The translations under genes were made by a program, and so were the position numbers. A stretch of 64,000 bases of DNA, from contig NZ_LT608327.1 in the NCBI RefSeq assembly GCF_900095705.1, positions 1 through 64,000 on the forward strand, given 5' to 3'. This document shows, one piece after another, positions 2,140-61,368 of this stretch; position 1 is the first letter of the stretch, and every line of letters begins with the position of its first letter. The notes beneath the pieces were generated by a model, which was not told the origin of the DNA, did no database searches, and worked only from the letters and a program-made list of their open reading frames with translations. Origin of the DNA: Fusobacterium massiliense (GTDB lineage Bacteria > Fusobacteriota > Fusobacteriia > Fusobacteriales > Fusobacteriaceae).

Positions 2140-2214
2140 AGTCTCTGACATCCATATTAGTTAAAGAGACTGTATTTATTGAGCTCGTAGAACTTATATA
2201 ACTGTCAAGAGACT
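2140..2214 (+). repeat. hairpin repeat copy 1
   Basis: Copy of the AGTCTCT...AGAGACT element, plus orientation, class I loop (TTTATTGAGCTCGTAGAACT). The inner CCGTAT/ATACGG helix has decayed (CCATAT/ATATAA) while the outer helix is intact. It lies between the 3' ends of guaA and the lactate dehydrogenase gene, preceded by the conserved A/T-rich lead (AGTAAAGTATAAAATTAAAT). Confidence 0.9.
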
Positions 2215-2257
2215 TTATTTTTTAAATTAAATATTACTTTTTCTGTTTAAAGATTTC

Positions 2258-3265
2258 TTATTTTATATCGTTTTTACAAGCACCAGTATCTAAATATTCT
2301 TTTAAGTTATCAAAAGAAGTTTCTATCATATTTGATGCAGCTTCATCAGTGTAAGAACCAACGTGTGGAGTTACAAGAACTCTTGGATATAAATCAAGTA
2401 ATCTGTTAAATTCAGGGAAGTCTAGTTTGAATTTAGCTTCTTTATCTGAGAAGTTTTTAAAGAAATAATTAACTTCTCCTTCGATAGTATCTATACCAGC
2501 ACCAGCTAAGTGACCACTTTCAAGAGCTTCTATAACAGCAGTTAAATCCATTAATTCTCCTCTTGCAGTATTTACTAATATAGAACCTTTTTTCATTTTA
2601 GCTAAGAATTCTTTAGTAACTATTTTTCCGTTTTCTTTTATAAATGGTGCATGTAATGTTATGATATCACTATTTGCTATTAATTCATCCATAGAAACTT
2701 GAGTAACGATATCTTCAACACCAGTTTTTGGGAACATATCATATCCTAAAACATTAGCTCCTAATCCTTTAAATAATTTAGCAGCTGTAAAACCTATTCT
2801 TCCAAGTCCTACAACCCCAACAGTACAGTTTCTGATTTCTTTTGAGAACATTTGAGCATCAACTGTAAAATCTCTATTTTTGAATTTTTCAGCAGTGTAA
2901 GGTAAAGATCTTAATAAAGACATTGCTAATGATACAGCTAATTCAGCTATTGCATTAGGAGAATAGAAAGGAACATATGCTAATTTTAAACCAATTTCTT
3001 TTGCATATTTTACATCGATATGGTTAGTTCCAACAGTTCTAGTAAATAAATACTTTACTCCATAGCTTTTATACATATCTAAAACTTCTTTAGTTGCAAA
3101 ACAGTTTCCACGTAAAACAACACATTCAAATCCTTTTGCTTTTTCTGCAGTTTCTTTACTGTTTAAGTAGTCTGGAATTAATTCTATTTCATAACCAAAT
3201 TTTTTGTTTAATTCATGAAATAAAGGAACTTCTACATCTCTTACACCATAAAATAAAACTTTCAT
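2258..3265 (-). CDS. D-2-hydroxyacid (D-lactate type) dehydrogenase
   Basis: NAD-dependent cytosolic enzyme that probably reduces pyruvate, or another 2-oxoacid, to the D-2-hydroxyacid while regenerating NAD. 335 residues. The Rossmann motif [13 protein letters not shown] lies near residue 150, and the catalytic Arg (VNTARGEL), Glu (TIEGE) and His (VTPHVGSYT) of the D-isomer-specific 2-hydroxyacid dehydrogenase family are all present. It fits the D-lactate dehydrogenase subgroup; 2-hydroxyglutarate or hydroxyisocaproate cannot be excluded as substrate. AGGAGGT lies just ahead of the ATG. The promoter is overlapped by a 13-bp inverted repeat (3291-3325), so repression linked to redox or metabolite state is plausible. 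It diverges from gdhA. Confidence 0.9.
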
Positions 3266-3290
3266 TTAAAACCTCCTAAAATTTTTTAAT

Positions 3291-3349
3291 TAATTTACTA
3301 AATTTATTAGTCATTTAGTAAATTATAACATAAAAAAAATAAATTGAAA
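3291..3349 (-). promoter_or_regulatory. promoter and inverted-repeat operator of the lactate dehydrogenase gene
   Basis: On the minus strand, -10 TATAAT (3322-3327) is preceded by TGT (extended -10), with TTTCAA as -35 (3344-3349, 16-bp spacer). A perfect 13-bp inverted repeat, TAATTTACTAAAT (3291-3303) and ATTTAGTAAATTA (3313-3325), runs across the start region and into the -10. The half-site centres are 22 bp apart, two helical turns. This is operator-like; the binding protein is unknown. Confidence 0.6.
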
Positions 3350-3535
3350 GGGCAAATCTTAATCAAAAATATAAAAATATTATATTAAAATAGATAACAA
3401 TTAAAAATCTATATTAAAAGGTCAAAATTATATATACAATAAATATAAGAATTAAAAAATATATAAAAAAATAATTCAAATAAAATATTACTAAAATTAA
3501 ACACTTTGAACTTAAAAAAATATGATTTTTTTATA

Positions 3536-3563
3536 TTGACATATAAAAAAAATATGATAGAAT
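3536..3563 (+). promoter_or_regulatory. strong promoter of gdhA
   Basis: Consensus -35 TTGACA (3536-3541), 16-bp spacer, and extended -10 TGATAGAAT (TAGAAT at 3558-3563). The leader to gdhA is about 80 nt with no obvious riboswitch. The rest of 3360-3530 is A/T-rich DNA in which I see nothing further. Confidence 0.75.
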
Positions 3564-3651
3564 ATAAAATATAAATAGATAGTAAATGAATTTAAAAGAT
3601 TTTTGTTAAGTCTGTTTATTTTAATTTTATTTTTTTAAGGAGGAATTATCA

Positions 3652-4929
3652 ATGAGTAAAGAAACTTTAAATCCACTAGAAAGCGGACAAAAACAAGTAA
3701 AGAAGGCATGTGAAGCTTTAGGACTAGATCCAGCTGTGTATGAATTATTAAAGGAACCTCAAAGAATAATTGAAATCACTATACCTGTAAAAATGGATGA
3801 TGGTTCAATAAAAACATTTAAAGGATACAGATCAGCTCATAACGATGCAGTAGGACCTTTCAAAGGAGGAATCAGATTCCATCAAAACGTTAATGCTGAT
3901 GAAGTAAAAGCTCTTTCTCTATGGATGAGTATTAAATGTCAAGTAACTGGAATCCCTTATGGAGGAGGAAAAGGTGGAATTACTGTAGATCCTTCTGAAT
4001 TATCTCAAAGAGAATTAGAACAACTTTCAAGAGGTTGGGTAAGAGGAATGTGGAAATACTTAGGAGAAAAAGTTGACGTTCCTGCTCCAGATGTAAATAC
4101 AAATGGACAAATAATGGCTTGGATGCAAGATGAATATAATAAATTAACTGGAGAACAAACTATAGGAGTTTTCACAGGAAAACCATTAACTTATGGTGGA
4201 TCTCAAGGAAGAAATGAAGCAACTGGATTTGGTGTTGCAGTTACTATGAGAGAAGCATTTAAAGCATTAGGAAAAGACCTTAAAGGAGCAACAGTTGCTG
4301 TTCAAGGTTTTGGAAATGTTGGAAAATACTCTGTTAAAAATATAATGAAATTAGGTGGAAAAGTTGTAGCAGTTGCTGAATTTGAAAAAGCAAAAGGAGC
4401 ATTTGCTATATATAAAGAATCAGGATTTACTTTTGAAGAATTAGAAGCTGCTAAAGCTGCTGGAAGTTTAACAAAAGTTGCTGGTGCAAAAGAATTAACT
4501 ATGGATGAATTCTGGGCTTTAAACGTTGAAGCTATAGCTCCATGTGCACTAGAAAATGCTATTAAAGAACACGAAGCTGAATTAATAAAAGCTGGAATTA
4601 TTTGTGAAGGAGCAAACGGACCAATAACTCCAGAAGCTGATGAAGTTCTTTATAAAAAAGGTGTAGTAGTTACTCCTGACGTTTTAACAAATGCTGGAGG
4701 AGTTACAGTATCTTACTTCGAATGGGTACAAAATATCTATGGATATTATTGGACAGAAAAAGAAGTTGAAGAAAAAGAAGAAAGAGCTATGGTAGATGCT
4801 TTCACACCTATTTGGGCATTAAAGAAAGAATTTGATCAAAAAGGACAACCTATTTCTTTCAGACAAGCTACTTATATGAAATCTATAAAGAGAATAGCAG
4901 AAGCTATGAAAGTTAGAGGATGGTTCTAA
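3652..4929 (+). CDS. gdhA: glutamate dehydrogenase
   Basis: Oxidative deamination of glutamate to 2-oxoglutarate and ammonia, the entry to glutamate fermentation in fusobacteria. 425 residues, the size of hexameric (family I, ~50 kDa) enzymes. The substrate-site stretch PYGGGKGGI, the catalytic PAPDVNTNGQIMAWM region and the NAD-binding motif GFGNVGKYS near residue 215 are clear. Clostridial and fusobacterial homologues of this type are NAD-specific, which suits a catabolic role. AAGGAGG lies nine bases before the ATG. It has its own strong promoter and a 16-bp terminator. The lactate dehydrogenase gene lies divergently upstream, and the glutamate mutase genes 2-5 kb downstream belong to another glutamate route. 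Confidence 0.96.
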   Translation: MSKETLNPLESGQKQVKKACEALGLDPAVYELLKEPQRIIEITIPVKMDDGSIKTFKGYRSAHNDAVGPFKGGIRFHQNVNADEVKALSLWMSIKCQVTGIPYGGGKGGITVDPSELSQRELEQLSRGWVRGMWKYLGEKVDVPAPDVNTNGQIMAWMQDEYNKLTGEQTIGVFTGKPLTYGGSQGRNEATGFGVAVTMREAFKALGKDLKGATVAVQGFGNVGKYSVKNIMKLGGKVVAVAEFEKAKGAFAIYKESGFTFEELEAAKAAGSLTKVAGAKELTMDEFWALNVEAIAPCALENAIKEHEAELIKAGIICEGANGPITPEADEVLYKKGVVVTPDVLTNAGGVTVSYFEWVQNIYGYYWTEKEVEEKEERAMVDAFTPIWALKKEFDQKGQPISFRQATYMKSIKRIAEAMKVRGWF

Positions 4930-4981
4930 TCATCTAATTAAAGTTACATTCTTTAATTACTAATAAAATTTAAAATACAAA

Positions 4982-5024
4982 TAAGGTAAGACTGTTACGT
5001 ATGTAATAGTCTTATCTTTTTTTT
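4982..5024 (+). terminator. intrinsic terminator of gdhA
   Basis: Sixteen-bp stem AAGGTAAGACTGTTAC / GTAATAGTCTTATCTT with two G-U pairs and loop GTAT, followed by eight T. One of the longest terminator stems in the window, fitting a highly expressed gene. Confidence 0.9.
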
Positions 5025-5058
5025 ATTGTATAGGAAAGTATAAGTTTAAATACTTATT

Positions 5059-5090
5059 AGTCTCTGACGTCCGTATTAGTTCGAAGATAG
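5059..5090 (+). repeat. hairpin repeat copy 2 (left half only)
   Basis: Left arm of the dispersed hairpin repeat (class I), running AGTCTCTGACGTCCGTATTAG and TTCGAAGA before the sequence diverges. The right arm is absent, so it cannot fold. The conserved lead ATAGGAAAGTATAA is present just upstream (5030-5043). Confidence 0.85.
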
Positions 5091-5107
5091 TTTATTTATT
5101 TTATTTC

Positions 5108-5136
5108 TTATCAAAAGTATAATTTTATGTTAAAAT
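5108..5136 (+). promoter_or_regulatory. promoter of the YhcC-like gene
   Basis: TTATCA (5108-5113), 17-bp spacer, TAAAAT (5131-5136) preceded by TGT. The predicted start leaves a leader of only ~15 nt before the GTG at 5158, and no ribosome-binding site is visible. Confidence 0.5.
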
Positions 5137-5157
5137 ATAAACAAAAATAAAAGTGAT

Positions 5158-6090: not shown

Positions 6091-6121
6091 ATAAAAAAAT
6101 ATAGGTTTAAAAGGAGGATAA

Positions 6122-6940: not shown

Positions 6941-7002
6941 TTTTATACATAATGGGGTATAATAAGGAGATGAAAAGTTTTAGAATTGGAGGATTTTAAA
7001 AA

Positions 7003-7416: not shown

Positions 7417-7422
7417 ATATAT

Positions 7423-8829: not shown

Positions 8830-8839
8830 GGGGATTTTA

Positions 8840-10296: not shown

Positions 10297-10361
10297 AATC
10301 CCTGATATCCATATTAGATAAAAAGTTTTTATATAAAAACTCATATGGATAATTAGGGATT
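10297..10361 (+). repeat. hairpin repeat copy 3 (divergent, re-paired)
   Basis: A 65-bp variant whose arms changed together: outer AATCCCT/AGGGATT in place of AGTCTCT/AGAGACT, inner CCATAT/ATATGG in place of CCGTAT/ATACGG, and a new self-complementary tip AGTTTTTATATAAAAACT. Five bases after the mutE stop, so it could also end that transcript (T-rich 3' side). Confidence 0.85.
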
Positions 10362-10404: not shown

Positions 10405-10479
10405 AATCTCCAACGTCAGTATTAGTTAGAAGAGCCTATACTTACTAAGCTCGTAAACTTATACGGCTGTCAAGAGACT
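10405..10479 (+). repeat. hairpin repeat copy 4
   Basis: Class I copy in plus orientation with a weakened left arm (AATCTCC) against an intact right arm (AGAGACT). It pairs with copy 3 (start-to-start 108 bp) between the convergent mutE and ilvE genes; the lead ATAGAAAAAGTATAAA lies between them. Confidence 0.85.
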
Positions 10480-11430: not shown

Positions 11431-11505
11431 AATCCCTAGACAATTGTATAAGTTTTATGGGCTCAATAAACACAGGCCCTTCAACTAATACAGATGCCAG
11501 GGATT
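11431..11505 (-). repeat. hairpin repeat copy 5, ilvE leader
   Basis: Class I copy in minus orientation with a compensated outer helix (AATCCCT/AGGGATT) and the class I loop CTCAATAAACACAGG. It ends ~30 bases ahead of the ilvE start codon and is open in the ilvE frame. Confidence 0.88.
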
Positions 11506-11635: not shown

Positions 11636-11711
11636 AGTCTCTTGATAGCCATATGAGTTCTACGAGCTCAATAAACACAGGCTCTACGAACTAATACGGA
11701 CATCAGAGACT
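11636..11711 (-). repeat. hairpin repeat copy 6
   Basis: Full class I copy, minus orientation, AGTCTCT...CAGAGACT. First of a tandem pair with copy 7 (period 119 bp), the spacer being the conserved A/T-rich sequence TTTAACTTTATACTTTCTTA and following bases. Between ilvE and the divergent sirtuin gene. Confidence 0.92.
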
Positions 11712-11754
11712 AATTTTACTATTTAACTTTATACTTTCTTAGTATAATAAATGA

Positions 11755-11830
11755 AGTCTCTTGACCACCGTATGAGTTCTACGAGCTCAATAAACACAGG
11801 CTCTACGAACTAATACGGACGTCAGAAACT
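11755..11830 (-). repeat. hairpin repeat copy 7
   Basis: Class I copy, minus orientation, second member of the tandem pair. The loop half is almost identical to copy 6, which suggests a recent duplication; the outer right arm has one change (AGAAACT). Confidence 0.9.
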
Positions 11831-11922
11831 AAAATTTTCTATTTAATTTTATACATTCCTATATAATAAAAAATGTTATATAATTAAAAAATAGCTAATT
11901 AATAAATAAGGAGGCTTATGCT

Positions 11923-12642: not shown

Positions 12643-12691
12643 AAATTATTTTATATTTCTATAGGAAAGTGTAAAATTAAATAAAAAAATT

Positions 12692-12767
12692 AGTCTCTTG
12701 ACAGCCGTATGAGTTCTACGAGCTCAATGAACATAGGCTCTTCGAACTAATACGGACGTCAGAGACT
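12692..12767 (-). repeat. hairpin repeat copy 8
   Basis: Full class I copy, minus orientation, intact outer (AGTCTCT/AGAGACT) and inner (CCGTAT/ATACGG) helices. The A/T-rich lead ATAGGAAAGTGTAAAATTAA is on its left, the opposite side from other minus-oriented copies, as if the core had flipped within its flanks. Confidence 0.92.
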
Positions 12768-16217: not shown

Positions 16218-16844
16218 ATGAAAAAGACATTAAAAGTTTTATTGTTTTTACTAGGAATAAGTGTAATAGCACAAGCAGAAACTGTACCAACTGAAATGAA
16301 TGAAGCTGATAAAAAAGAAGCAATGAAAATCTTAGAAAGAATGAGAGACAAGATAGAGAAAGCAGAAAAAGAAAGAGCGAAAGAAGAAGCAAGACTTGCA
16401 AAAGAAAAAGCAGAAGCAGAGAAAAAGGCTCAAGAAGAGGCCGAAAGATTAGCAAGAGAACAAGCAGAAGCAGAAAGACAAGCAATGGAAGCTCAAGCGC
16501 AAGCACAAAAAGTAATGGAAGAAGCTCAAGAAAAAGTTGTTGAGGAACAAGTTAAAGCGGCAGAAACAAGCGAAGTAGTCATTGCAACTCCGGTAGAAGA
16601 AAAAGTAGTAATAGAAGAAATAAAACCTGAAACAGAGGAACAAAGAATAGAAAGAATAAATAAAACAATAGCAGAAAAAAGAAAAGCAGAAAAGAAAGTA
16701 AAACCAAAAACAGCATTTGAAAAACTAGAAAAGACAAAAGAAGAAGCATTAACAAAACTAGATTTTTATGAAAGAGTAGTAAGAAGTGTTGCAAGAGAAG
16801 AGAATGAAATAAAAGGCTACACAGAAATCACTGAAGGTAAATAG
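16218..16844 (+). CDS. secreted A/E/K-rich coiled-coil protein 1
   Basis: No function recognised. A signal peptide (MKKTLKVLLFLLGISVIAQAE) is followed by a nearly uninterrupted charged helix of TolA-like composition (ERAKEEARLAKEKAEAEKKA...), a short V/T/P-containing break near 115-135, and a second helical segment to residue 208. It is predicted to be periplasmic or surface-attached. A 127-bp segment (16371-16497) is repeated at 95% identity in the next gene, so the two genes share a tandem-duplicated module. It is second in the adhesin operon, where helper or anchoring roles for the large autotransporter are plausible but unproven. Confidence 0.75.
   Translation: MKKTLKVLLFLLGISVIAQAETVPTEMNEADKKEAMKILERMRDKIEKAEKERAKEEARLAKEKAEAEKKAQEEAERLAREQAEAERQAMEAQAQAQKVMEEAQEKVVEEQVKAAETSEVVIATPVEEKVVIEEIKPETEEQRIERINKTIAEKRKAEKKVKPKTAFEKLEKTKEEALTKLDFYERVVRSVAREENEIKGYTEITEGK
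16371..16497 (+). repeat. 127-bp direct repeat, copy A (coiled-coil module)
   Basis: Differs from copy B at six of 127 positions; five are silent, and the sixth makes Leu into Val in a 42-residue helical module. The flanks are unrelated. Confidence 0.9.
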
Positions 16845-16853: not shown

Positions 16854-17456
16854 ATGAAAGTGAAAGTAAAAAAAATACTAGGGATAATGTTGGGAGTACT
16901 AATAATAGGACAAGTTTCATTGGGAGCTGAAGATGAAGCGAAAGCCAGATTATTGAAAGAATATGACAAAATAATGAAAGAAAGAGCGAAAGAAGAAGCA
17001 AGGCTAGCCAAAGAAAAAGCAGAAGCAGAGAAAAAGGCTCAAGAAGAGGCCGAAAGAGTAGCAAGAGAACAAGCTGAGGCAGAAAGACAAGCAATGGAAG
17101 CTCAAGAAAAAGTACAAAATGAGCAAATAGAAGCAGAAAAAAGAGTTGAAGAAGAAAGGGTAGCAACTGAAAATGCAGTTGCAGAAGCTCAAGCTAAGGA
17201 AGCTCAAGAGAAGGCAGAAGCAGAAAAGAAAGCTGAAGAAGAAAGAATAAAAGCAGAAAAGAAAGCTCAAAAAGAAAGAGAAAAGAATATGACAGATAGT
17301 GAAAAGATGGATAGAGAAGTAAAAAGAATAAAAGCTGAAATGATGGCTATTACTGATAAGATAGAAAACTATACAAAAACAAATGAAATGTTAAACGAAT
17401 TAGAAGGAAAATTAAATGATCTAGGAAAGAGAAATAGATTAATGGAGGGAAAATAA
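16854..17456 (+). CDS. secreted A/E/K-rich coiled-coil protein 2
   Basis: Partial paralogue of the preceding gene, function unknown. A signal peptide (MKVKVKKILGIMLGVLIIGQVSLGAE) is followed by a continuous charged helix with heptad-like AEAEKKA/EEER units to about residue 160, then a short C-terminal helix (DKIENYTKTNEMLNELEGKL). The start is either ATG 16854 or GTG 16860; AAGGAG at 16846-16851 is better spaced for the GTG, which would trim two residues. Ten bases separate it from the gene before and one from the lipoprotein after it. Confidence 0.75.
   Translation: MKVKVKKILGIMLGVLIIGQVSLGAEDEAKARLLKEYDKIMKERAKEEARLAKEKAEAEKKAQEEAERVAREQAEAERQAMEAQEKVQNEQIEAEKRVEEERVATENAVAEAQAKEAQEKAEAEKKAEEERIKAEKKAQKEREKNMTDSEKMDREVKRIKAEMMAITDKIENYTKTNEMLNELEGKLNDLGKRNRLMEGK
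16980..17106 (+). repeat. 127-bp direct repeat, copy B (coiled-coil module)
   Basis: Second copy of the module at 16371-16497, 609 bp downstream in the same orientation and reading frame. The near-identity in otherwise diverged genes indicates recent duplication or gene conversion. Confidence 0.9.
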
Positions 17457-18233: not shown

Positions 18234-21200
18234 ATGAGTAACAATTTGTTAGATGTTGAAAGAAGTTTACGTTATATTGCGAAAAGATACAAGAGTGTAA
18301 AATTTTCAGTAGGCTTAGCGATAATGTTTCTAATGATGGGAGTAGGAGCATTTTCAGCAGATGTATCTGAAATAAAAGCAGAAGCTGCAGCACAAGAAAG
18401 TTTACTTACAAGACCAGAAATAGGTGGTTCAGTAGAAAGTATAAGAGATAAATCAAGACAAATAAGAAAAGAAAATGATAAAGCGTTAAGTGGAGCAAGA
18501 TTAGAATTAGTAAAACTAATGGAACAAGGAAATCAAGTAGTAAAATCACCATGGTCATCATGGCAATTTGGGGCAAATTACTACTATGATCATTGGGGAT
18601 CAACATATAAGGGAAAAGGAGATAAAGCGCAAAAATATCCTTATGAAGGAATATTTGAAAGAAGTACAGATCCATATGAAAGAAATATATCACCGGATAG
18701 CACAAGCTATGCTAAATATACAGCTTTAAAAGAAAAAGAAAGAGCAGAAAAAGGGATAAAGGTAGATCCAACAAGATCAGCAACATCAAGCATAAGAAAA
18801 GCTGGAGGAGTATCGTCAGATAGTTATGGAATAGCAAGTAATACAAAAGTACAAGAACCTATAGCAAGTCTTAATATAGATGCAACAGTAAGACCAAAAG
18901 AAGTTGGAAGAAAACCTGTAAGTGTTGATGAAATAAAAACAAAAGTACCGGCAGAAGTAAATGTTTTATTGAATGTTCCAGAGGTGCCAACACCAGATAA
19001 AATAATACCTAATGAAGTAAAAGTAACAGTAAAAACTCCTCAACCGAGTACAGATCCTTTTATGGATTTTTATACAGATACTAATGAGGGGTATGAAAAA
19101 ATAAATACGGGAATTTATTCAGCATTAAATTCTAATACTGGTGTAGCTAATGATGCTACTAGAGGTAATTTATATACTGAATACAAAGAAAAAAAATATG
19201 TAAATTCTAACGAAAAAACAGATAGTAACTTTAAAAATAAAGTTCTATATTCGGGGCATGATGGAACAAATTATGTTGCAGAGTCGGGAAAAATAGACAA
19301 TAATGGACAAAAGCAAGATATTATTTCTGGTACTAGGAGAAAAGCAATGTTAGTTTATTTAAAAAATCCTTATTTAGTAGGAAATAAAATTCTTGAGAAT
19401 GGAAATTCTGGTGCAAGAATAGACGCATCTGAAGATCAAAAAATTAGTGAAATAGATAATAGAGTTGGTGGATACCTTTATGGTGGTTCAGATAATGATG
19501 CAAACAAAAAAATATTCCATTTAGCTGGAAATGTTGATGCTGCTGGAAAAAGAAATGGTAAAGGAAATGGGGAAGGAGAAGTAGGAATACATTCAGTATG
19601 GAATGGAACTATACAAAATGTAGAAGGAAACTTATATGGAAAAGCAGCTATGTTTTCTATCGAAAGTTGGCATGCTCCTAAAATTGTGTTTAATGATGTA
19701 AAAGTAAATTTACTGGGGGATAAAAATACAATTTTCTATTTTGCTCCAGCAAATGAAGAATTTTTATTGAATGATATAAAGAAAGAATATAATGCTTCTA
19801 TACAAAGAGGAGCTTTCTTAGGAAAAGGGGTAAATGTAGATGCTAAAACTAATGAAAATATAGTATATTCAGTTGTTGGGTCTTCAGGTTCATTTAATTA
19901 TACTAATAATGCAAATATAAATTTTGAAGGTGCAAACAACATATTTTATTCAGGGTTAGGATACTCTCCTAATATGAAAAATTTAATAAATGGAGATACT
20001 ATCCAAGATTTTTACAAAACAGGAATGACTCCACTTATAAATATGAAAAAACCATTAAACTCTTATGGTGATGGAAATACTGTTTTATTATTTGCAGATT
20101 TAATTCAAGATGATACAATAGGAATAGGTATAGATGGAGAAAAACTAAATAAAAAACCGGAAACAACAACAACATGGGGTAATTTAAAAAATGCATGGAG
20201 AAATACTAAAATAGGTATATTCCAAGGAGAAGTAAGAGCAGCTGCTAGAATAGGAGAAAAATTAAATATTGCTGGTGGAGATAGTCAGACTGAGAAGGGT
20301 AATACAGGGGGAACATCAGATAAATGGGTTGAAAACAATGTTGGAATTTTAGCACAATCTGGACAAAGAGAAGGAATTGAGCCAAAAAAAGATTTGTTGA
20401 AAAATGACAATAAATTTGAACATGTAGATAAAGATGCTATTCATCCTTTATATGTAAATGATATAGATGTTACTTTTGGAAAATACTCTAAGAGAAATAT
20501 AATGATAGCTTCTGAAAGAGGAACACAAATAGATGTAGCTAAAAAAACTAATAGTTCAACTGCTGGTGCAGAAAACGGAATAGCTATAAGAACAGAATCT
20601 ATAAAAGATTATAATAGTGAGGCTACAAATACTGATTTTGCAGGTGGTAAATTAGTAAGTTCAACTGATGATAATGCTAATAAAGCTGCAACAGGAACAA
20701 TTTTAGCTTTAGCTAAAGGAACTTGGGGAGATGGTGAAGCTAAACAAAGAAGATTAAATACAAATAACGATTATAAGCATACAAATTATGGAATTAGTGT
20801 AGATACAATAAATGCACTTAAAGATAAACCGTCTGAAATTAATTTCGGAGTACCAGTTGAAATGTCAGCAAAAATGGCTAAAGAAAAAGTTGGAGGTAAA
20901 GATGTTGAATTAAGACCGATAGCATATATGGCTGAAGGTGGAAAAATAACAGTAAGCGGGGAATCTTTATCAGCAGGAAAAGAAAATACAACTAAGGCTT
21001 ATGGATACGGTTCATTAATAGCTTATGCAAATAAATATGAGCATAAATATAAATCAAATCCAGATCTTGCAGAACCTGATAAATCTACTGTAAGTTATGG
21101 AGATATTCATATAGATGGAAATATTGAGGCTGTAGATGAATGGGCAGCAGATGATGCAGCTACTAAACTTGAAAAATATAACAATGTTGGAGCTTATGCA

Positions 21201-24200
21201 TCAGGTAAAGGTGGTTCTGGAAAAGATGGAGCTGAAGCTGTTAAAAATTCTAAAGTAGTTATAACAGGAAATGCTAAAATTAATGGTACTGCAGCTTATG
21301 CTAGTGAAGGTGGAGTTGTAGAAATTCAAGGTAAAAATAGTGAAATTAAAGCTGGAGAAGGAAGTGGATTAGTTGCTACTAAGGGTGGTACTATTAAATT
21401 TGGTGGAGGAACTATAGAAGTTAAAAATAATTTTGATGATCCAACAAAATATGATAAGGTAGCACCAGTTTACGCAGATAAGGATTCTAAAATTGAAATA
21501 ACAGGAACTACAGCTTTTAATATTTATGATGGAGTTATTGATATAGCTAATGTAAATGACTATAATAAAACTGATAGTAAATATCAAGGATTTAAAGAAC
21601 ATGTAACATTGAATATTAAAAAAGATGGTATCAATCTAGGACAAATAGATAATACAGGTTCTACAATGGTATGGAATGGTACTGATGATTATGTGAAAAG
21701 TTTATTAGCTAATCCAGATAATAACGGAGAAAAACAATTATTTAAAGAGGTTGAAGCTAAAAAAGATAATGGACAAGGATATTTTTGGACTAAATCGTAT
21801 ATAAAAGGTGGAACTTTGAATGTAGAACCTAAAGCTCCAGCAACAACTTTAAATATCAGTATAAATGATGAAAATGATGGATATAACCATATTTCATTAA
21901 GAAAAACATTGGTTAATATTAAAGAGGGAGTTACTGTTACAAGAGATGCTAGTAATACAACATTTAAGGCACAAGGCTTGAGTATTCAGTCTGATAAAAA
22001 TGCAAACTCTAATGATGAAACTGGATTTGTAAACAGTGGACTTGTAAAAGTAAAAAATGGTATTTTAACACCAAGTAGTTCTACAGCTGCCATGTCAGTA
22101 AACTATGGAAAAATAGAAAATAAAAATAAAATTGAAATGACTAATGCAGGAGTTGGAATATTTGGAACAAATGGAAGTAAATTAGTAAATGATACAACTG
22201 GAACTATTACTGTAGCAGAAAAAGGTATAGGAATAGCAGCAAATGCTTCATCAAAAGTAAATTCAAGTGATAATGTAACATTTGGAACAGATAAAGCTGG
22301 AGCAACAGGAAATGTTGTAGATATTCTAAATGCAGGTAAAATTGATATTAAAGGAAAAGATTCTATAGGAATATCAGTAAAAAATAACAGTGATAAGGAT
22401 AGAAGTAAAGTACTTGTTAAAAATACTGGCGATATAGTTCTTGGAGATAATGGAGCTGGAATATCAGTTAAATCAACTAATACATCTAATAATGAAGGAG
22501 CAACTATAGAATTAGCTGGAAATATAACAGTGGGAGCAGAAGGAATAGGAACTTATGCTCAAAATTCAGATGTTAAACTTATAGATAATTTAAATGTTAA
22601 TGTTAAAGATTCTGGTGTAGGAATATACTTGAAAGATAATTCAAAAATTACTGCAGAGTCTGGAAAGAAATTAATATTAAATTATAATGGAAGTAATACA
22701 GGTAAGGCTACTGGAGTTATTTTTGATGGAAATAATTTAACTAATAATATTGATGTTGAAATTAATAATACAACAAATACGACAGCTGGATTAACTAACC
22801 TTTTAGCTAGTGGAACAGGAACATTTACTAATAAAGGAAATATAAAAACTGTTGGAGTAAAAGGATATGGAATAGTAGCAAATAAAGATACTTTAACTTC
22901 TGTTGTGAACGAAGGAGATATAGATGTATCTGCTGCAGATAATGATGCTAATCCTAATATAGGAATTTATGCTAAAGAAGCTGCAACAGCTATAACAAAT
23001 AAGAAAAATATAAAAGTTGGAAAAAATTCAATTGGTATATATGGCCATGAAGTTACTTTAGAAACAGCAGCTAATATAGAAACTTCTGATAATGCTGTTG
23101 GAATTTACTCTAATTCAAAAGATGTGACTTTAAAAGCTGGAAGTACTTTAAATGTAGGAACAAATAAAGCTGTTGGAATTTATGCTGCTGGTAGTGGACA
23201 AAATATAAATCTTTTAGGAAACATTTCTATTGGAGACAGTGGATATGGACTTATCAATAACAATGAACAAGCTAATAATACAATAGTTTCAAGAGCAACA
23301 TTAACTAAAGATTTAGGAAGTGACACAGTATTTATATATTCTAAAGATAAATTAGGAAGTGTAGAAAATCGTACTAATTTAAAAGCAACAGGTGATGAAA
23401 ACTATGGAATCTATGGTGCTGGTAAAGTAGATAACTATGGAAATATGGATTTCAAAGCAGGAAAAGCAAATGTTGGTATTTATAGTACATCTGCTGATCC
23501 AACTAAAGTTGCTACTAACCATTTAGGAGCAACTATAGAAGTTGGGGCTTCAGTATATGATAAAATGAAACCTAAAAACGCCAAGTATGCTATAGGTATG
23601 GCTGGAGGATATACTCCTGCAAGAGATGATAAAAATGAAGATGGAAGTCCAAAAACTCCATTCACAGGACATATTGTCAATGAAGGAACAATAAAAGTTA
23701 CAGGAGAACATTCTATAGGTATGTTTGCAACTGAAAAAAATTCTACTTTAGAAAATAGAGGAGATATAATTTTATCAGCAAGCAATACGACAGGAATTTA
23801 TCTTGATAATAAAGCTGTAGGTCATAACTATGGAAGAATTTTATCTGAGGGAGAAGGCTTAGAAAATCTAGTTGGTATAGTTGTAAAAAATGGAGCAACT
23901 ATAGAAAACCATCCAGGTTCTGAAATCAGATTAAGTGCTAAAAATAGTAAAGGAATATATGTAGCAGGAGCAGGAAATAACAAAGGAATAATTAAAAACT
24001 ACGGAGATTTTGTTATAAGTGCTGACAAAAAAGAAGCAAGTCTTGCAGGAGCAAAAATATCTGTACAAGGAGAAGGTTCAAGTGCTTTTGATGAAAATAA
24101 GAGTCAACTTGATAAAGAAGTAGGAGGAGTTAAACTAGATGAAAAAGGAATCTATGATAAGAGACTTCCTCAAGAAAAACCAATTAAAAAACCTAATTTA

Positions 24201-25770: not shown

Positions 25771-25850
25771 ATCAAATAGTGTCTATGACTTAGTACAATT
25801 AAGAGAATTTTTGAGAATAAAAACTTGAAAATTCTCTTTTTTTATTATAT
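25771..25850 (+). repeat. dispersed repeat family 2, copy i
   Basis: ATCAAATAGTGT ... TATGACTTAGTACAATTAAG plus the terminator hairpin matches the reverse complement of 31622-31739, but lacks an 18-base internal segment (TGATGAAAAAGTTTAGAC) present there. It contains the autotransporter terminator. Confidence 0.75.
25802..25843 (+). terminator. intrinsic terminator after the autotransporter
   Basis: Ten-bp stem AGAGAATTTT / AAAATTCTCT with a 16-base loop and seven T. The hairpin and loop are nearly identical to the terminator of the GntP operon at 31622-31664. Confidence 0.88.
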
Positions 25851-25880
25851 AGGAAGGTATAAAATCAAATAATGAAATTT

Positions 25881-25953
25881 AGTCTCCGACGTCCGTATTA
25901 CTCTGTAGAGCATTTCGGTGAGCTCGGAAGAGTCATACGGCTGTCAGGAGACT
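25881..25953 (+). repeat. hairpin repeat copy 9 (class II)
   Basis: Class II form: outer AGTCTCC/GGAGACT, inner CCGTAT/ATACGG, third helix ACTCT/AGAGT (class I has AGTTC/GAACT), tip GCATTTCGGTGAGCTC. Both arms changed together relative to class I. It lies ahead of ung and is open in the ung frame. Confidence 0.92.
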
Positions 25954-29037: not shown

Positions 29038-29110
29038 AGTCTCTGATGTCCGTATTACTCTGGAGAGCATTTCGGTGAGCTCGGAAGAGTCATACGGCTG
29101 TCAGGAGACT
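29038..29110 (+). repeat. hairpin repeat copy 10 (class II), kdsA terminator-like
   Basis: Class II copy with third helix ACTCT/AGAGT. Outer helix AGTCTCT/GGAGACT has one U-G pair, intermediate between classes I and II. Followed by seven T, so in this orientation it has the form of an intrinsic terminator. Confidence 0.9.
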
Positions 29111-29367: not shown

Positions 29368-29401
29368 ATTATATGAAAATATAATTTAAATAGCGAAAAA
29401 T

Positions 29402-29477
29402 AGTCTCTGATGTCAATATTAGTTTGAAGAGTCTATTTTTATTGAGTTTGTAGAATTTATAGAGCTGTCAAGAGACT
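29402..29477 (+). repeat. hairpin repeat copy 11
   Basis: Class I copy with decayed inner helix (TCAATAT/TTTATAGAG) but intact outer helix. Start-to-start distance to copy 12 is exactly 119 bp, the same as copies 6 and 7; the spacer is the A/T-rich lead ATGAAAATATAAAATTAAAT. Confidence 0.88.
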
Positions 29478-29520
29478 TTATTTATTCTATATGAAAATAT
29501 AAAATTAAATAATGAAAAAT

Positions 29521-29596
29521 AGTCTCTGACGTCCGTATTAGTTCGAAGAGCCTGTGTTTATTGAGCTTGTAGAACTCATACGGCTGTCAAGAGACT
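29521..29596 (+). repeat. hairpin repeat copy 12, argS leader (reference copy)
   Basis: Intact 76-bp class I copy: AGTCTCT/AGAGACT, GAC/GTC, CCGTAT/ATACGG, AGTTC/GAACT and GAGC/GCTC helices around a CTGTGTTTATTGA loop. It ends 31 bases before the argS start codon, so it is probably in its leader RNA. Confidence 0.93.
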
Positions 29597-31426: not shown

Positions 31427-31500
31427 AGTCTCTGACGTCCGTATTAGTTAAGAGCCTATGGTTATTGAGCTCATAAAACTCATACGGTTGTCAAGAGACT
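31427..31500 (+). repeat. hairpin repeat copy 13
   Basis: Class I copy in plus orientation, intact outer and inner helices (one G-U: CCGTAT/ATACGG then TTGTCA), preceded by the lead AAGGGAAGTATAAAAATAAA. Between the convergent argS and gntP-family genes. Confidence 0.92.
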
Positions 31501-36718: not shown

Positions 36719-36793
36719 AATCTATGATATCCGTATTAGTTTGAAGAGACTATCTTCATTAAGCTCATAGAACTTATACGGCTGTTAAGAGAC
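36719..36793 (+). repeat. hairpin repeat copy 14
   Basis: Class I copy, outer helix partly decayed (AATCTAT/AGAGAC), inner CCGTAT/ATACGG intact; the loop variant CTTCATTAAGCTCATAG is shared with copy 15, so these two duplicated from each other (94-bp spacing). Confidence 0.88.
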
Positions 36794-36812
36794 ATAAAAT
36801 TAAATAAAAAAT

Positions 36813-36888
36813 AGTCTCTGACGTCCGTATTAGTTTGAAGAGATTATCTTCATTAAGCTCATAAAACTCATACGGTTGTCAAGAGACT
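36813..36888 (+). repeat. hairpin repeat copy 15
   Basis: Class I copy with intact outer and inner helices and the same CTTCATTAAGCTCATA loop as copy 14. It ends 22 bases before the rclA-like stop codon (minus strand), so it is downstream of that gene but in opposite orientation. Confidence 0.9.
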
Positions 36889-38783: not shown

Positions 38784-38856
38784 AGTCTCCTGACAGCTGT
38801 ATGACTCTTCCGAGCTCACCAAAATGTTCTCCAGAGTAATACGGACATCGGAGACT
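38784..38856 (-). repeat. hairpin repeat copy 16 (class II)
   Basis: Class II, minus orientation: AGTCTCC/GGAGACT outer helix, third helix ACTCT/AGAGT. Tandem with class I copy 17 (113 bp period); a class I + class II pair also occurs at 53797-53987. Confidence 0.92.
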
Positions 38857-38896
38857 AATTTTATATTAAATTTATACTTTTCTATATAATAAAAAG

Positions 38897-38972
38897 AGTC
38901 TCTTGACAGCCGTATGAGTTCTACGAGCTCAATAAACATAGGCTCTTCGAACTAATACGGACATCAGAGACT
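38897..38972 (-). repeat. hairpin repeat copy 17
   Basis: Full class I copy, minus orientation, 12 bases beyond the kdsD stop codon. Read on the minus strand its right arm is followed by CTTTTTATT, so it can serve as terminator of the kdsD operon. Confidence 0.92.
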
Positions 38973-42593: not shown

Positions 42594-42618
42594 AATACTC
42601 CAATCTTTTACTCTATTA

Positions 42619-42691
42619 ATTTCTGATGTCAATATAAGTTCAAAGAATTTATATTTCTTAAACTTATAAATTATATGATTTTCAAGAGATT
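42619..42691 (+). repeat. hairpin repeat copy 18 (decayed)
   Basis: Recognisable from AATTTCTGATGTCAATAT ... TTTCAAGAGATT, with the outer helix nearly kept and the inner helix lost. Between the SDR and the radical SAM fusion gene, in plus orientation. Confidence 0.65.
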
Positions 42692-44636: not shown

Positions 44637-44687
44637 AGTCTCTGATGTTTATTGAGCTCGTAGAACTCATACGGCTATCAAGAGACT
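44637..44687 (+). repeat. hairpin repeat copy 19 (internal deletion)
   Basis: AGTCTCTGATGT joined to TTTATTGAGCTCGTAG and the full right arm; about 25 bases between two TGT triplets are missing, removing the inner left arm. Outer helix still pairs. Confidence 0.85.
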
Positions 44688-44850: not shown

Positions 44851-44926
44851 AGTCTCTGATGTCCGTATTAGTTCGAAGAGCCTGTGTTTACTGAGCTTGT
44901 AAAACTCATACGGCTATCAAGAGACT
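44851..44926 (+). repeat. hairpin repeat copy 20, tetR leader
   Basis: Full class I copy between the operators and the tetR gene, so it must be transcribed in the 5' leader of the efflux operon. It is open in the tetR frame and yields the false start MFTELVKLIRLSRDS. Confidence 0.92.
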
Positions 44927-51070: not shown

Positions 51071-51470
51071 TGTAAGAAATATGAATGATACAGAAAGTAC
51101 AAGTTATAAGCTGATTATGTTACATATAAATGATAGTCAAGTAAGAATGTTGGAAGATTTTTTTGCTATGATAGATATTTATTACTATACAATTGAAAGT
51201 AATGTAAAAAGAGCAATAGAAAAGAATATAAAACATCAACAAACTAAAGTTTGGCCTGGTTCAGACGCTCTTATAACTTTTCCAATAGGAGATAAAAAAT
51301 TAGATGAGCTTTTGATAAAATTAAAAACATTTAGAATGGCATTACCTAAAGGAATAGTAATGTCAGTAGCTATAATTCCATTTGAAAGAGTTATAAAAAG
51401 TTTATATAATGCAGATATTCCTATTGATAACGAACTTTTTAATGAAATTCAAGACAAATATAATGTTTAA
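51063..51470 (+). CDS. small cytosolic protein at the end of the RND operon (PII-like?)
   Basis: No firm family. 135 residues, no signal peptide or membrane segment. The order of predicted strands and helices (YKLIMLHI, helix RMLEDFFAMID, YYYTIES, ...DALITFPIGD, helix KKLDELLIKLKTF, GIVMSVAIIPFERVI) and the closing IPFERVI resemble PII/CutA-type ferredoxin-like folds that form trimers. Start ATG 51063 is chosen over TTG 51060 because AGGAG at 51051-51055 is correctly spaced. It overlaps the end of the pump gene by 8 bases, so expression is tied to the pump and a regulatory role is possible (inference). Confidence 0.65.
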   Translation: MDNVRNMNDTESTSYKLIMLHINDSQVRMLEDFFAMIDIYYYTIESNVKRAIEKNIKHQQTKVWPGSDALITFPIGDKKLDELLIKLKTFRMALPKGIVMSVAIIPFERVIKSLYNADIPIDNELFNEIQDKYNV

Positions 51471-51488
51471 AATTTTAATTTATTAATT

Positions 51489-51652
51489 AAAAATAGTTCG
51501 TTATAACCAGATTTCTTAACGATTAAAAATCAAGAGTTCGCTACAAATTTGGCAAAACTCGCTAACAAGTTAGCTCAGACACGCCAAGATTTGTTCGGCT
51601 CACTCTATTTGATTTTTAATCTAAAATCTGGAAAAATAACTCACTTATTTTT
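51489..51652. repeat. 164-bp imperfect palindrome, distinct family
   Basis: Nested arms pair over almost the full length: AAAAATA/TATTTTT ends, CCAGATTT (51507) with AAATCTGG (51624), GATTAAAAATCAA with TTGATTTTTAATC, and GAGTTCGCTACAAATTTGGC with GCCAAGATTTGTTCGGCTCA, leaving a ~30-base tip that contains GCTAAC/GTTAGC. It is unrelated to the 75-bp hairpin repeat, which follows 16 bases later. Between the RND operon and the convergent debranching-enzyme gene. Confidence 0.8.
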
Positions 51653-51668
51653 AAATTATCCAAAAGAT

Positions 51669-51742
51669 AGCCCCGATGTCCGTATTAGTTCGAAGAGCCT
51701 GTGTTTATTGAGCTCGTAGAACTCATACGGCTATCAGGGGCT
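51669..51742 (+). repeat. hairpin repeat copy 21 (re-paired outer helix)
   Basis: Class I body with outer helix AGCCCC/GGGGCT instead of AGTCTCT/AGAGACT: both strands changed to C/G together. Inner helix CCGTAT/ATACGG intact. Between convergent genes. Confidence 0.92.
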
Positions 51743-51774
51743 TATAATATAGTTTTAAAAAGATAAAAATTTAA

Positions 51775-53709: not shown

Positions 53710-53747
53710 AATATTTCCTTATATTTCCTTTTAAAATTTTTATTTTA

Positions 53748-53756: not shown

Positions 53757-53796
53757 TAAAGTAGGATAGAATTTTGACTAAATAATAAATAAATAA

Positions 53797-53872
53797 AGTC
53801 TCTTGATAGCCGTATGAGTTCTACGAGCTCAATAAACACAGGCTCTACGAACTAATATGGACATCAGAGACT
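53797..53872 (-). repeat. hairpin repeat copy 22
   Basis: Class I, minus orientation, outer helix intact, one G-U in the inner helix (CCGTAT/ATATGG). Tandem with class II copy 23 (118 bp period). Confidence 0.92.
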
Positions 53873-53914
53873 AATTTTACTATTTAATTTTAAACTTTCT
53901 TATAGAATAAAAAA

Positions 53915-53987
53915 AGTCTCCTGACAGCCGTATGACTCTTCCGAGCTCACTAAAATGCTCTCCAGAGTAATACGGACGTCGGAGACT
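53915..53987 (-). repeat. hairpin repeat copy 23 (class II)
   Basis: Class II, minus orientation, AGTCTCC/GGAGACT and ACTCT/AGAGT helices intact; tip GCTCACTAAAATGCTC. Followed by the lead complement TAAATTTATACTTTCCTATA. Confidence 0.92.
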
Positions 53988-54041
53988 AATTTTTATATTA
54001 AATTTATACTTTCCTATAAAATAATAAAATTACTTAATTTC

Positions 54042-54070: not shown

Positions 54071-54117
54071 TTAATATGATGTTTGAAGTGTAATAAATAT
54101 TTATTAGAGGTGTTATT

Positions 54118-54924: not shown

Positions 54925-54925
54925 T

Positions 54926-55504: not shown

Positions 55505-55524
55505 TAATTGATGAGGTGTAATAA

Positions 55525-56580: not shown

Positions 56581-56597
56581 TTGGTTGGTAGGTTAAG

Positions 56598-57837: not shown

Positions 57838-57846
57838 GAGGTTAAA

Positions 57847-58137
57847 ATGGCATTAACAAAAGAAGAAGTTTTAAAAATTGCAAAGTTATCAAAATTAAGT
57901 TTTAAAGAAGAAGAAATTGAAAAATTCCAGATAGAATTAAATGATATTCTAGGATACGTTGATATGTTAAATGAAGTAGATACTTCTCAAGTAGAGCCAC
58001 TAATCTACATTAATGATGTTGTAAATAATTTTAGACAAATAGAAGAAAAAGAATCTTTACCATTAGAAAAAGTACTAGCTAATGCACCGGAAAGTGCTGA
58101 AAATGCAATAGTAGTTCCTAAAGTTGTTGGAGAATAG
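57847..58137 (+). CDS. gatC: Asp/Glu-tRNA amidotransferase subunit C
   Basis: Small wrapper subunit stabilising GatA in the tRNA-dependent transamidation of Glu-tRNA-Gln or Asp-tRNA-Asn. 96 residues: VLKIAKLSKLSFKEEEIEKFQIELNDILGYVDMLNEVDTSQVEPL and a late NFRQIEEKESLPLEKVLANAPES. AGGAGG before the ATG; eight bases separate it from gatA. Confidence 0.95.
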   Translation: MALTKEEVLKIAKLSKLSFKEEEIEKFQIELNDILGYVDMLNEVDTSQVEPLIYINDVVNNFRQIEEKESLPLEKVLANAPESAENAIVVPKVVGE

Positions 58138-58145
58138 GGGGAGAA

Positions 58146-59606: not shown

Positions 59607-59620
59607 TAAGGAGTATGAAA

Positions 59621-61066
59621 ATGATAAAAGAATGGGAGTCAGTTATAGGACTAGAAGTTCATTTACAATTAAAGACAGGAACTAAAGTATGGTGTGGTTG
59701 CAAATCTGACTACGATGAAAATGGAATAAATGCTCATACATGTCCAATATGTTTGGGGCACCCTGGAGCTCTTCCAAAATTAAATAAAAAAGTGGTAGAT
59801 TATGCTTTGAAAGCTGCATTAGCTCTTAATTGTAAAATAAATAATGAAAGTGGATTTGATAGAAAAAACTATTTTTATCCAGATGCACCGAAGAATTATC
59901 AAATAACACAATTTGAAAAATCGTATGCTGAAAAAGGATATATAGAATTTAAATTAAACTCTGGTAGAGAAGTGAAGGTTGGAATTACTAAAGTTCAAAT
60001 AGAAGAAGATACTGCAAAAGCTATCCATGGTAAAAATGAATCTTATTTAAATTTTAACAGAGCTTCAATACCTTTGATAGAAATTATTTCTGAACCAGAT
60101 ATGAGAAATTCAGAAGAAGCTTATGAATATTTAAACACACTAAAAAATATTATAAAATATACTAAAGTTAGTGATGTTTCTATGGAAAAAGGTTCTTTGA
60201 GATGTGATGCAAATATTTCTGTTATGGAAAAAGGCTCAAAAGTTTTTGGGACAAGAGTTGAAGTTAAAAACCTAAACTCTTTCAAAGCTGTTGCAAGAGC
60301 AATAGATTATGAAATTGGTAGACAAATTGAGCTTATTCAAAATGGTGGAAAAGTAGACCAAGAAACAAGACTTTGGGATGAAGAAAATCAAATAACAAGA
60401 GTTATGAGATCCAAAGAAGAAGCAATGGATTATAGATATTTCAATGAAGCAGATTTATTAAAACTTGTTATTACTGACGAAGAAATAGAAAATATTAAAA
60501 AAGATATGCCTGAAACAAGATTAGCAAAAATTGAAAGATTTAAAAAAGATTATGCAATAGATGAAAAGGAAGCACTTATTTTAACTGAAGAAGCAGAACT
60601 TTCAGATTATTTTGAAGAAGTAGTAAAATATTCTAATAATCCTAGATCTTCTTCGAATTGGATTTTGACAGAAGTTTTAAGAGTGTTGAAAACTAAAAAT
60701 ATTAGCATAGAAGAATTTTCTTTAACAAGTGAAAATCTTGCAAAAATAATTAAATTAATAGATAAAAATATTATCTCATCTAAGATTGCAAAAGAAGTTT
60801 TTGAAATAATTTTAGAAGACAATAAAGATCCTGAAATAGTTGTAAAAGAAAAAGGATTGATTCAATTATCAGATACAAATGAGATAGAAAATATGGTAGA
60901 TGAAGTTTTAGCTAATAACCAAAAAATGGTTGATGATTATCATGCAGCTGATGAAGGAAGAAAACCTAGAGTTTTAAAAGGAATAGTTGGGCAAGTAATG
61001 AAATTATCTAAGGGAAAAGCAAATCCTGAAATAGTAAATGAGTTATTAATGAAAAAATTAAGTTAA
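59621..61066 (+). CDS. gatB: Asp/Glu-tRNA amidotransferase subunit B
   Basis: Kinase/transamidase subunit that phosphorylates and amidates the mischarged tRNA. 481 residues from ATG 59621; an ATG at 59615 is too close to AAGGAG. GLEVHLQLKTGTKVWCGC with CPICLGHPGALP supplies the four zinc cysteines; SLRCDANISV and NLNSFKAVARAIDYEI are family signatures. The C-terminal YqeY-like tail (residues ~330-481) binds tRNA. Asn- and/or Gln-tRNA in this organism are therefore probably made by transamidation. Confidence 0.97.
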   Translation: MIKEWESVIGLEVHLQLKTGTKVWCGCKSDYDENGINAHTCPICLGHPGALPKLNKKVVDYALKAALALNCKINNESGFDRKNYFYPDAPKNYQITQFEKSYAEKGYIEFKLNSGREVKVGITKVQIEEDTAKAIHGKNESYLNFNRASIPLIEIISEPDMRNSEEAYEYLNTLKNIIKYTKVSDVSMEKGSLRCDANISVMEKGSKVFGTRVEVKNLNSFKAVARAIDYEIGRQIELIQNGGKVDQETRLWDEENQITRVMRSKEEAMDYRYFNEADLLKLVITDEEIENIKKDMPETRLAKIERFKKDYAIDEKEALILTEEAELSDYFEEVVKYSNNPRSSSNWILTEVLRVLKTKNISIEEFSLTSENLAKIIKLIDKNIISSKIAKEVFEIILEDNKDPEIVVKEKGLIQLSDTNEIENMVDEVLANNQKMVDDYHAADEGRKPRVLKGIVGQVMKLSKGKANPEIVNELLMKKLS

Positions 61067-61079
61067 AAAAATATTTTAT

Positions 61080-61126
61080 AAAGTAAAAATAGAGAGTCTA
61101 TTAAAGATAAACTATTTTTACTTTTT
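61080..61126 (+). terminator. intrinsic terminator after gatB
   Basis: Perfect 13-bp stem AAAGTAAAAATAG / CTATTTTTACTTT with a 19-base loop and T run; end of the gatCAB transcript. Confidence 0.82.
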
Positions 61127-61175
61127 CTATTTTTTATTTATTTTATAAAAAAGGATAAAATTAAATAAGAAAATT

Positions 61176-61218
61176 AGTCTCTGATGTTCATATTAGTTTG
61201 AAGGGCTTATATTTATTC
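61176..61218 (+). repeat. hairpin repeat copy 24 (left half)
   Basis: AGTCTCTGATGTTCATATTAG ... TATATTTATT, then replaced directly by the lead (CTATAGGAAAGTATAAATTT) of copy 25. The right arm is missing. Confidence 0.82.
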
Positions 61219-61251
61219 TATAGGAAAGTATAAATTTAAATAATAAAAGTT

Positions 61252-61327
61252 AGTCTCTGACGTCCGTATTAGTTCGAAGAGCCTATGTTCATTGAGCTCG
61301 TAGAACTCATACGGCTGTCAAGAGACT
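61252..61327 (+). repeat. hairpin repeat copy 25
   Basis: Full class I copy with intact helices, plus orientation, 66 bases before the peptidase start. Confidence 0.93.
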
Positions 61328-61340
61328 TTATTTAATGACT

Positions 61341-61368
61341 TCTAAGTTCATAGGGGTATCAAGAGACT
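61341..61368 (+). repeat. hairpin repeat copy 26 (right end only)
   Basis: TCTAAGTTCATAGGGGTATC plus AAGAGACT: the right arm of the element fused directly behind copy 25, including the trailing TTTATTTAATAA. Confidence 0.75.

Follow-up and report, generated by a model that had tools for sequence, protein, structure and literature searches.

Insertion sequences (ISs) of the IS91/IS801 kind begin transposition downstream of their transposase gene and stop at the other end or at a substitute for it, which gives rise to short one-ended derivatives (PMC3189936). Here we describe a small dispersed repeat from the first 64,000 nucleotides of contig NZ_LT608327.1 of Fusobacterium massiliense (assembly GCF_900095705.1); this whole stretch, called the window, corresponds to C6:1-64000 of genome G000, which comprises 1.81 Mb in six contigs. 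The repeat, F-H, joins a constant flank (F) to a hairpin (H) and is most likely a non-autonomous rolling-circle element of about 119 nt whose mode of action resembles that of the IS91 family.

ISFv1 of Fusobacterium varium Fv113-g1 is an IS91-like element of 1.44 kb with 47 chromosomal insertions, and the main text of the paper that describes it does not contain the word "terminator" (PMC5720691). It shares its transposase type (PF04986) with the partner IS found in our genome, the left ends are similar, and it too finishes with a hairpin followed by a T-run; unlike F-H, it codes for a transposase, and it is some ten times as long. ISFv1-type copies measured 1436-1437 nt between motif-defined ends (18 copies in genomes G027 and G025). 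The one-ended miniatures of IS801 in Pseudomonas syringae are like F-H in having one intact origin end, a substitute for the other end, and a transposase acting in trans, but they contain 229-679 nt of IS sequence, finish at a tetranucleotide, and have no palindrome at their new ends (PMC3189936). The target tetranucleotides of IS801 are GAAC, GGAC, CAAG, and CGAC, and the accessible text of that study neither describes terminator targeting nor uses the word "terminator" (PMC3189936). Regulatory motifs, including terminators, have been described in or near ISs, in a paper whose accessible text does not deal with the targeting of terminators (PMC9208149). We found no report in the literature of terminator targeting by ISFv1 or any other IS91-like element.

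Transposition of Helitrons such as Helraiser is brought to a stop by a hairpin near one end, and when this hairpin is bypassed, new ends arise (PMC4778049). Helitrons resemble F-H in this hairpin at the termination end and differ from it in being eukaryotic RepHel elements. We know of no Helitron that targets terminators. Group IIC introns insert behind intrinsic terminators and in this choice of target are like F-H, but they are retroelements. Finally, repetitive extragenic palindromic (REP) sequences and bacterial interspersed mosaic elements with a REP-associated tyrosine transposase (RAYT) are, like F-H, dispersed intergenic palindromes; they differ in end structure, and no complete RAYT-type domain was found in our genome. 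A literature search for REP sequences or miniature inverted-repeat transposable elements (MITEs) in Fusobacterium returned no relevant title.

Structure and copy number of F-H

The outer-arm word of the hairpin, AGTCTCT, occurs 33 times in the window, where 9.5 occurrences are expected and the largest of 100 shuffles gave 18. A single-sequence nhmmer search of the window detected 21 H places at E<=2e-7 and further weaker partial ones, while a profile search with additions from a covariance model gave 25 places, three of them clearly partial (5059, 44645, and 61176). An earlier note on this DNA had counted about 26 copies in 64 kb, which is the number reached if a weak half-copy near 61362 is included (E 5.7, single-sequence nhmmer). 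For genome-wide counts, the window was combined with 40 other stretches, in total 864 kb or 48% of the genome; a smaller sample of 464 kb underlies the location counts based on gene calls and the set of 84 copies used for covariation. Across the 864 kb, the profile search and four places seen only by the covariance model add up to 199 H places, and the longest gap between copies is one of 32 kb (C6:88064-120524). H is 76 nt long, its consensus is matched in full and without change at 12 genome places, and the predicted fold of the consensus has an energy of -34.9 kcal/mol. The copies fall into subfamilies A, B (with an ACTCT/AGAGT tip), and C (with a TAGCCCC/GGGGCT outer helix), and a C-G/U-A switch was also found at pair 10-66. 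The earlier note knew of no named family with this sequence, and Rfam at the gathering score matches only 5S rRNA and tRNA in the window.

The ~75-bp hairpin recognized in that note is real but is not the whole repeat. To the left of H lies a constant flank of ~34 nt beginning CTATAGGAAAGTATAAA (consensus of F, CTATAGGAAAGTATAAAATTAAATAA), present within 80 nt at 121/199 H places, with 30-36 nt from the start of F to the start of H in 107 of these 121 units. Beyond H there is a T-rich tail, most commonly TTATTTATT (19/90 normal units), which is found on the side away from F in both orientations of H: at least six T in nine positions were found there at 86/109, against 28/109 on the F-proximal side. 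F-H units also occur in tandem with a period of 119 nt, and 17 of the 121 come behind another H. F without H is rare, with five places in 864 kb (<=3 mismatches to 24-nt F), two of which are IS ends. By eye, the outer borders of F-H (the F end and the end of the H tail) are unlike each other, with no terminal inverted repeats. A T-run is present on both sides, indistinguishable from a target-site duplication unless empty F-H sites are available; we found no such site, and the congeners are distant (median of 56% protein identity, 82 matches to G015). The description as a MITE-like dispersed element was borne out. As a separate observation, at C6:644035 and C6:492543, F lacks H and is followed by a second common sequence, GATACTTACTATT, and a promoter-like stretch.

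The earlier note proposed a search of all fusobacterial genomes; none of the 60 other genomes of the family contains H, either by sequence search or, among the candidates scored, by the covariance model. H is likewise missing from 400 kb of G015 and one G016 locus, and the same 400 kb of G015 contain no 16-mer with six or more copies. No relative of H turned up in exact-word and blastn searches of viral contigs, plasmids, phages, and genome contigs (the last with an exact 18-mer), collections from which very near genomes may be missing.

An IS91-like element with the same end

H had been described as an element without a visible transposase, a view that changed once the left flank F was followed, as this led to an IS91-like element that shares this terminal sequence. 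F hits with at most one mismatch number 212 in our genome, 19 in G015, 11 in G037, and 4 in G016, and in the other genomes of the family they are mostly near the control level (the highest being G044, with 9 versus 3). Of the 11 hits in G037, 10 mark the left end of a single IS; these ends, which were picked by the F motif, start TATAGGAAAGTATAAATTTAAAGAG, and each stands behind a terminator-like hairpin. Eight copies are alike over ~1.46 kb, and the other two (L085 and L091) have only the left 475 or 713 nt in common. Our own genome has copies of the same kind of IS at C6:238452, 520890, and 537275, plus a left end at 106356. CTATAGGAAAGTATAAATTTAAAGAG is the start of three of these (520890, 537275, and 106356), and the copy at 238452 starts TATAAGGAAAG. 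When the origin-type ends are compared, F reads CTATAGGAAAGTATAAAATTAAAT in the consensus and CTATAGGAAAGTATAAATTTAAAG in the own IS, so that F-H and the IS have this end in common.

Tested in two parts, the own IS protein matches Zn_Tnp_IS91 (PF14319, 1.5e-23) and Y2_Tnp (PF04986, 1.2e-7) in its first part and no domain in its tail part. PF04986 was found at five places in our genome and in 22 of the 61 genomes of the family; G027 has at least 45 such places, G037 has 26, G025 has 15, and G015 and G016 have none. At their right end, the full-length IS copies compared have a hairpin with an energy between -22 and -26 kcal/mol, followed by TTTTTTTAT. The right end of the own and G037 copies reads GAGAGCC(A/G)ATTGC...GCAAT(T/C)GGCTTTTTTTAT, with GATAGCC in 520890, and that of the ISFv1-type copies reads GAGAGCTGAGTAAAAC...GTTACTCAGCTTTTTTTAT. 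By eye, the two ends of the IS in G037, G027, and G025 are unlike, and the orientation behind the target is always the same. In G037, six of the PF04986 places are arranged in tandem, four in one run and two in another, with a spacing of 1442 nt. In the IS, the transposase gene lies upstream of F, an anatomy that points to F as the origin-type end and to H as the stop-type end.

Other observations concern this group of sequences. IS91-like transposase frames at L047:16410-17621 (+) and L083:1632-2831 (-) have one in-frame TGA each, at a position with Trp in the related copy (own AGQ*KYHV versus G037 AKQWRFLV; G037 GRDLK*NPHIHAL versus own GRDLKWNPHIHAL). The in-frame TGA in these transposases may reflect nonsense decay or recoding. 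In the sister species G015, which has no PF04986 match, F at 166031, 260001, and 275112 is followed by another common sequence (CATAGAACTCTAA or close, <=1 mismatch); with two mismatches it appears at six more places without the F setting, and shuffled words gave 0-6. These F-linked sequences are possibly relics of a parallel mini-element.

Insertion behind intrinsic terminators

Terminators were sought with a folding script that required a hairpin of -5 kcal/mol or better and a T-run, with controls. We identified such a structure directly upstream of 28/30 IS left ends (10 in G027, 8 in G025, and 12 in G037, out of at least 86 PF04986 places in these genomes), and the two ends missed by the script (L127 and L090) are also behind a terminator by eye. 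In our genome, again by eye, the IS at C6:537275 starts directly behind an H copy, and the IS at 520890 and the left end at 106356 are behind AT-rich terminator-like stems. For one G025 insertion, the terminator is present without the IS in G024, which indicates a native host terminator; the right flank is elsewhere in G024, so the empty site is one-sided.

F-H follows the same rule in part. Among the non-tandem units, 49/104 are located behind a terminator, whereas the controls gave 5/121 for the far side, 2/104 for the reversed strand, and, over 20 shuffles, a mean of 7.4 and a maximum of 13 of 104 (Fisher p 7e-15); an earlier, stricter terminator finder was positive for 23/121 units. The fraction hardly changes with the age of the copy, being 30/61 with 0-2 stem changes, 8/20 with 3-5, and 7/14 with more, and it is lower in units with a flipped H (5/17 versus 40/78). 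Target, IS end, and F-H end are structures of the same kind, which would explain the tandem stacking of both F-H and the IS; as H with its tail resembles the target, F-H units can stack in tandem and an IS can land behind H. The earlier note had placed the copies at boundaries between transcription units, and a terminator directly upstream accounts for this in about half of the F-H units.

Covariation, decay, and location of the hairpin

In the 84 distinct copies, 93.8% of the stem cells pair, and 16/26 stem pairs have changed on both sides, against a shuffled mean of 10.1 and with 0/500 shuffles reaching 16. The covariation score is 0.201, compared with 0.135 in shuffled and ~0.05 in slid alignments, and differences between subfamilies carry much of this signal. 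Decay was analyzed by comparing 161 of the 199 copies with their nearest subfamily reference, after 38 copies covering <71 model positions had been dropped. Copies with 1-2 stem changes had 50 broken pairs versus 51.4 expected, and those with 3-5 changes had 66 versus 69.9 and slightly more compensated pairs than expected (7 versus 2.8). In the older copies, broken pairs were 80 versus 95.5 expected and compensated pairs 22 versus 10.0 (6-9 changes), 35 versus 50.1 and 21 versus 9.6 (10-15 changes), and 3 versus 7.9 and 5 versus 1.7 (a single copy with 16 changes). Old copies are easier to find when they are well paired, and four old ones were added through the structure model; omitting these four, compensated pairs are still 20 versus ~9.7 (6-9 changes) and 12 versus ~5.8 (10-15 changes). 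The compensatory changes are real and mainly separate lineages, and recent copies lose pairing almost neutrally, so the fold seems to be needed for spreading and not at each site. The claim that covariation shows a fold maintained by selection or by copying is supported when lineages are compared; for single sites it is too strong, and the majority of recent copies do not support it.

It is unlikely, given this decay, that H is a host regulatory or terminator hairpin under host selection, an exapted bidirectional terminator with only secondary mobility. Copies with 1-5 stem changes together have 116 broken pairs, about the ~121 expected by chance; the family is missing from all 60 related genomes; and where F stands behind an existing terminator, in about half of the units, H would be a second one. 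Nevertheless, copies with six or more stem changes contain 48 compensated pairs versus ~21 expected, and in some very diverged copies the stem has been retained or re-formed. The copy at L052:17820-17895, with 25% G+C, -25.4 kcal/mol, an AGACTCT/AGAGTCT outer helix, and long pairing followed by TTTTTTT, has perhaps been taken over as a terminator.

The location of H also lends this explanation some support, as the hairpin favors the 3' ends of genes: 28/93 copies are in convergent gaps and 13/93 in divergent ones, with 33 gaps of each kind. These counts rest on simple in-house gene calls, in which the 93 copies occupy 78 different gaps out of 179 of at least 40 nt. H had been described as never lying inside a coding region and proves to be almost wholly intergenic: 4/93 copies overlap a called gene by >10 nt, and the other 89 do not. 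Three of the four are in the window (11431, 25881, and 44851), each at a called gene start that may have been placed too early.

Proposed mechanism and other explanations

In the mechanism that we favor, F would be the origin-type end, common to F-H and to an autonomous-type ISFv1-like element of the same genome, and H with its short T-rich tail would be the termination-type end. An HUH transposase of the IS91 type, acting in trans, would make a nick at F and power strand transfer, by which one strand would be moved as far as the hairpin with its T-run and then be joined behind an intrinsic terminator, i.e., another hairpin with a T-run. Only hairpin-forming copies would spread; once landed, most would decay, and a few may persist as working terminators. 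We infer this chemistry, the mobilization in trans, and the movement of F-H itself from the anatomy of the two elements. F-H would thus be a miniature terminator-targeting IS91-like element, a choice of target that we have not found in print.

Several points weigh against this mechanism. A terminator was detected for only about half of the F-H units (for 8 of the 17 tandem ones) and no obvious one, by eye, upstream of the own IS at 238452, and the empty site that was found belongs to the IS rather than to F-H and is one-sided. The common end is short (17-23 nt), 78/199 H places, some of them inside C elements, have no recognizable F, and H is inverted relative to F in 21/121 units, which the model does not require. 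For the C elements and the inverted copies, a change of partner or direction by another route has to be assumed, perhaps recombination between the arms of H. H is longer and more bulged than the terminal hairpin of the IS, and we saw no sequence likeness between them. No intact IS91-like transposase was seen at the five own PF04986 places, as the three longer copies all contain an in-frame TGA (537275 also lacks ~300 nt) and the other two matches are at contig ends, in open frames of 183 and 210 aa. The junctions of the IS have a T-run and ATT, ATTA, or ATTTC instead of a target tetranucleotide of the IS91/IS801 type, and for this reason the element is termed IS91-like here rather than being classed as a typical IS91 member.

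A slightly weaker candidate than host selection is that H alone is mobile, through hairpin or cruciform recombination or gene conversion, with F as a common landing sequence. Such a process would explain why H occurs in two surroundings (F and element C) and in both directions relative to F. Element C has at least 11 near-full copies, including the one in the window; its terminal inverted repeats are 12 bp long (AAATTTTAATTT), and it contains a large palindrome as well as H. Two relatives, at C5:126097 and C5:353971, lack H. We nevertheless consider movement of H alone improbable, because F is hardly ever seen without H, is itself an IS end, and stands behind terminators in a fixed orientation.

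The earlier note compared the repeat with REP sequences and suggested a search for a RAYT. H does share with them the short, dispersed, intergenic, imperfectly palindromic form and the high copy number, but movement by a RAYT/TnpA-REP (Y1 HUH) transposase is very doubtful, as the only PF01797 trace in the genome spans 38/121 positions and the common end belongs to the IS91-like element, which we take as the partner instead. The open frame beside this Y1 trace (C6:364131-365389) looks like tnpB of IS605. A group IIC intron was rejected as the mover, with no PF00078 match in the genome (a mover elsewhere is possible). A classical DDE MITE does not agree with the borders of F-H; element C does have terminal inverted repeats.

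If F-H moves as an IS91-like miniature, the genome-wide hairpin repeat gains an identifiable transposase partner and a mechanism, and its large natural set of intact and decayed hairpins is suited to asking how a hairpin ends rolling-circle transposition. As a more tentative extension, a branch of rolling-circle elements might use the intrinsic terminator as a universal part with three roles: the site that is targeted, the end of the element itself, and the place where a further copy lands. Any downstream host terminator could then become a new end. A transposon of this type could shed its genes, leaving minimal units of one origin end plus the next terminator hairpin, and would spread terminators. 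Landing behind terminators spares genes and would let one-ended transposition of the IS91 type acquire new ends widely.

Features of the window

Table 1. Copies of H and associated parts in the window.
Feature	Position	Strand	Remarks
H	2140..2214	+	flank F at 2110-2126
F core motif (IS91-like end) of the 2140 copy	2110..2126	+	
Partial H	5059..5099	+	behind F and a strong terminator-like hairpin (-19.1 kcal/mol)
F core motif	5028..5044	+	directly behind the terminator-like hairpin
Old AT-rich H relative	10297..10361	+	re-paired stem AATCCCT/AGGGATT
H	10405..10479	+	
Old H	11431..11505	-	outer helix AATCCCT/AGGGATT, 4 compensated pairs
H	11636..11711	-	tandem with 11755-11830; F at 11728-11744
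H	11755..11830	-	tandem unit of 119 nt; F at 11848-11864
H	12692..12767	-	script-assigned F on + side, 12659-12675 (flipped); second F-like match on opposite side
H subfamily B (ACTCT/AGAGT tip)	25881..25953	+	
F core motif of the 25881 copy	25847..25863	+	directly behind a terminator-like hairpin (-13.2)
H subfamily B	29038..29110	+	
H, first of tandem pair	29402..29477	+	F at 29369-29385
H, second of tandem pair (period 119)	29521..29596	+	F at 29487-29503
H	31427..31500	+	
H	36719..36794	+	
H	36813..36888	+	
H subfamily B	38784..38856	-	tandem with 38897-38972; F at 38871-38887
H	38897..38972	-	
Very AT-rich diverged H (18% G+C)	42618..42691	+	
Partial H, internal deletion	44637..44687	+	
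H	44851..44926	+	
H subfamily C (TAGCCCC/GGGGCT outer helix)	51668..51743	+	
Element C (~306 nt), carrier of the 51668 H copy	51470..51772	+	12-bp terminal inverted repeat in other copies
H, tandem	53797..53872	-	F at 53889-53905
H subfamily B	53915..53987	-	F at 54003-54019
Partial H	61176..61217	+	F at 61143-61159
H, tandem behind the 61176 copy	61252..61327	+	F at 61218-61234

Aside from the repeats of Table 1, the window contains an open frame of 2501 aa at 18234-25739, which we take to be possibly a large surface or autotransporter-type protein. A direct repeat of 143 nt (93%) is found at 16368-16510 and 16977-17119, in two adjacent open frames.

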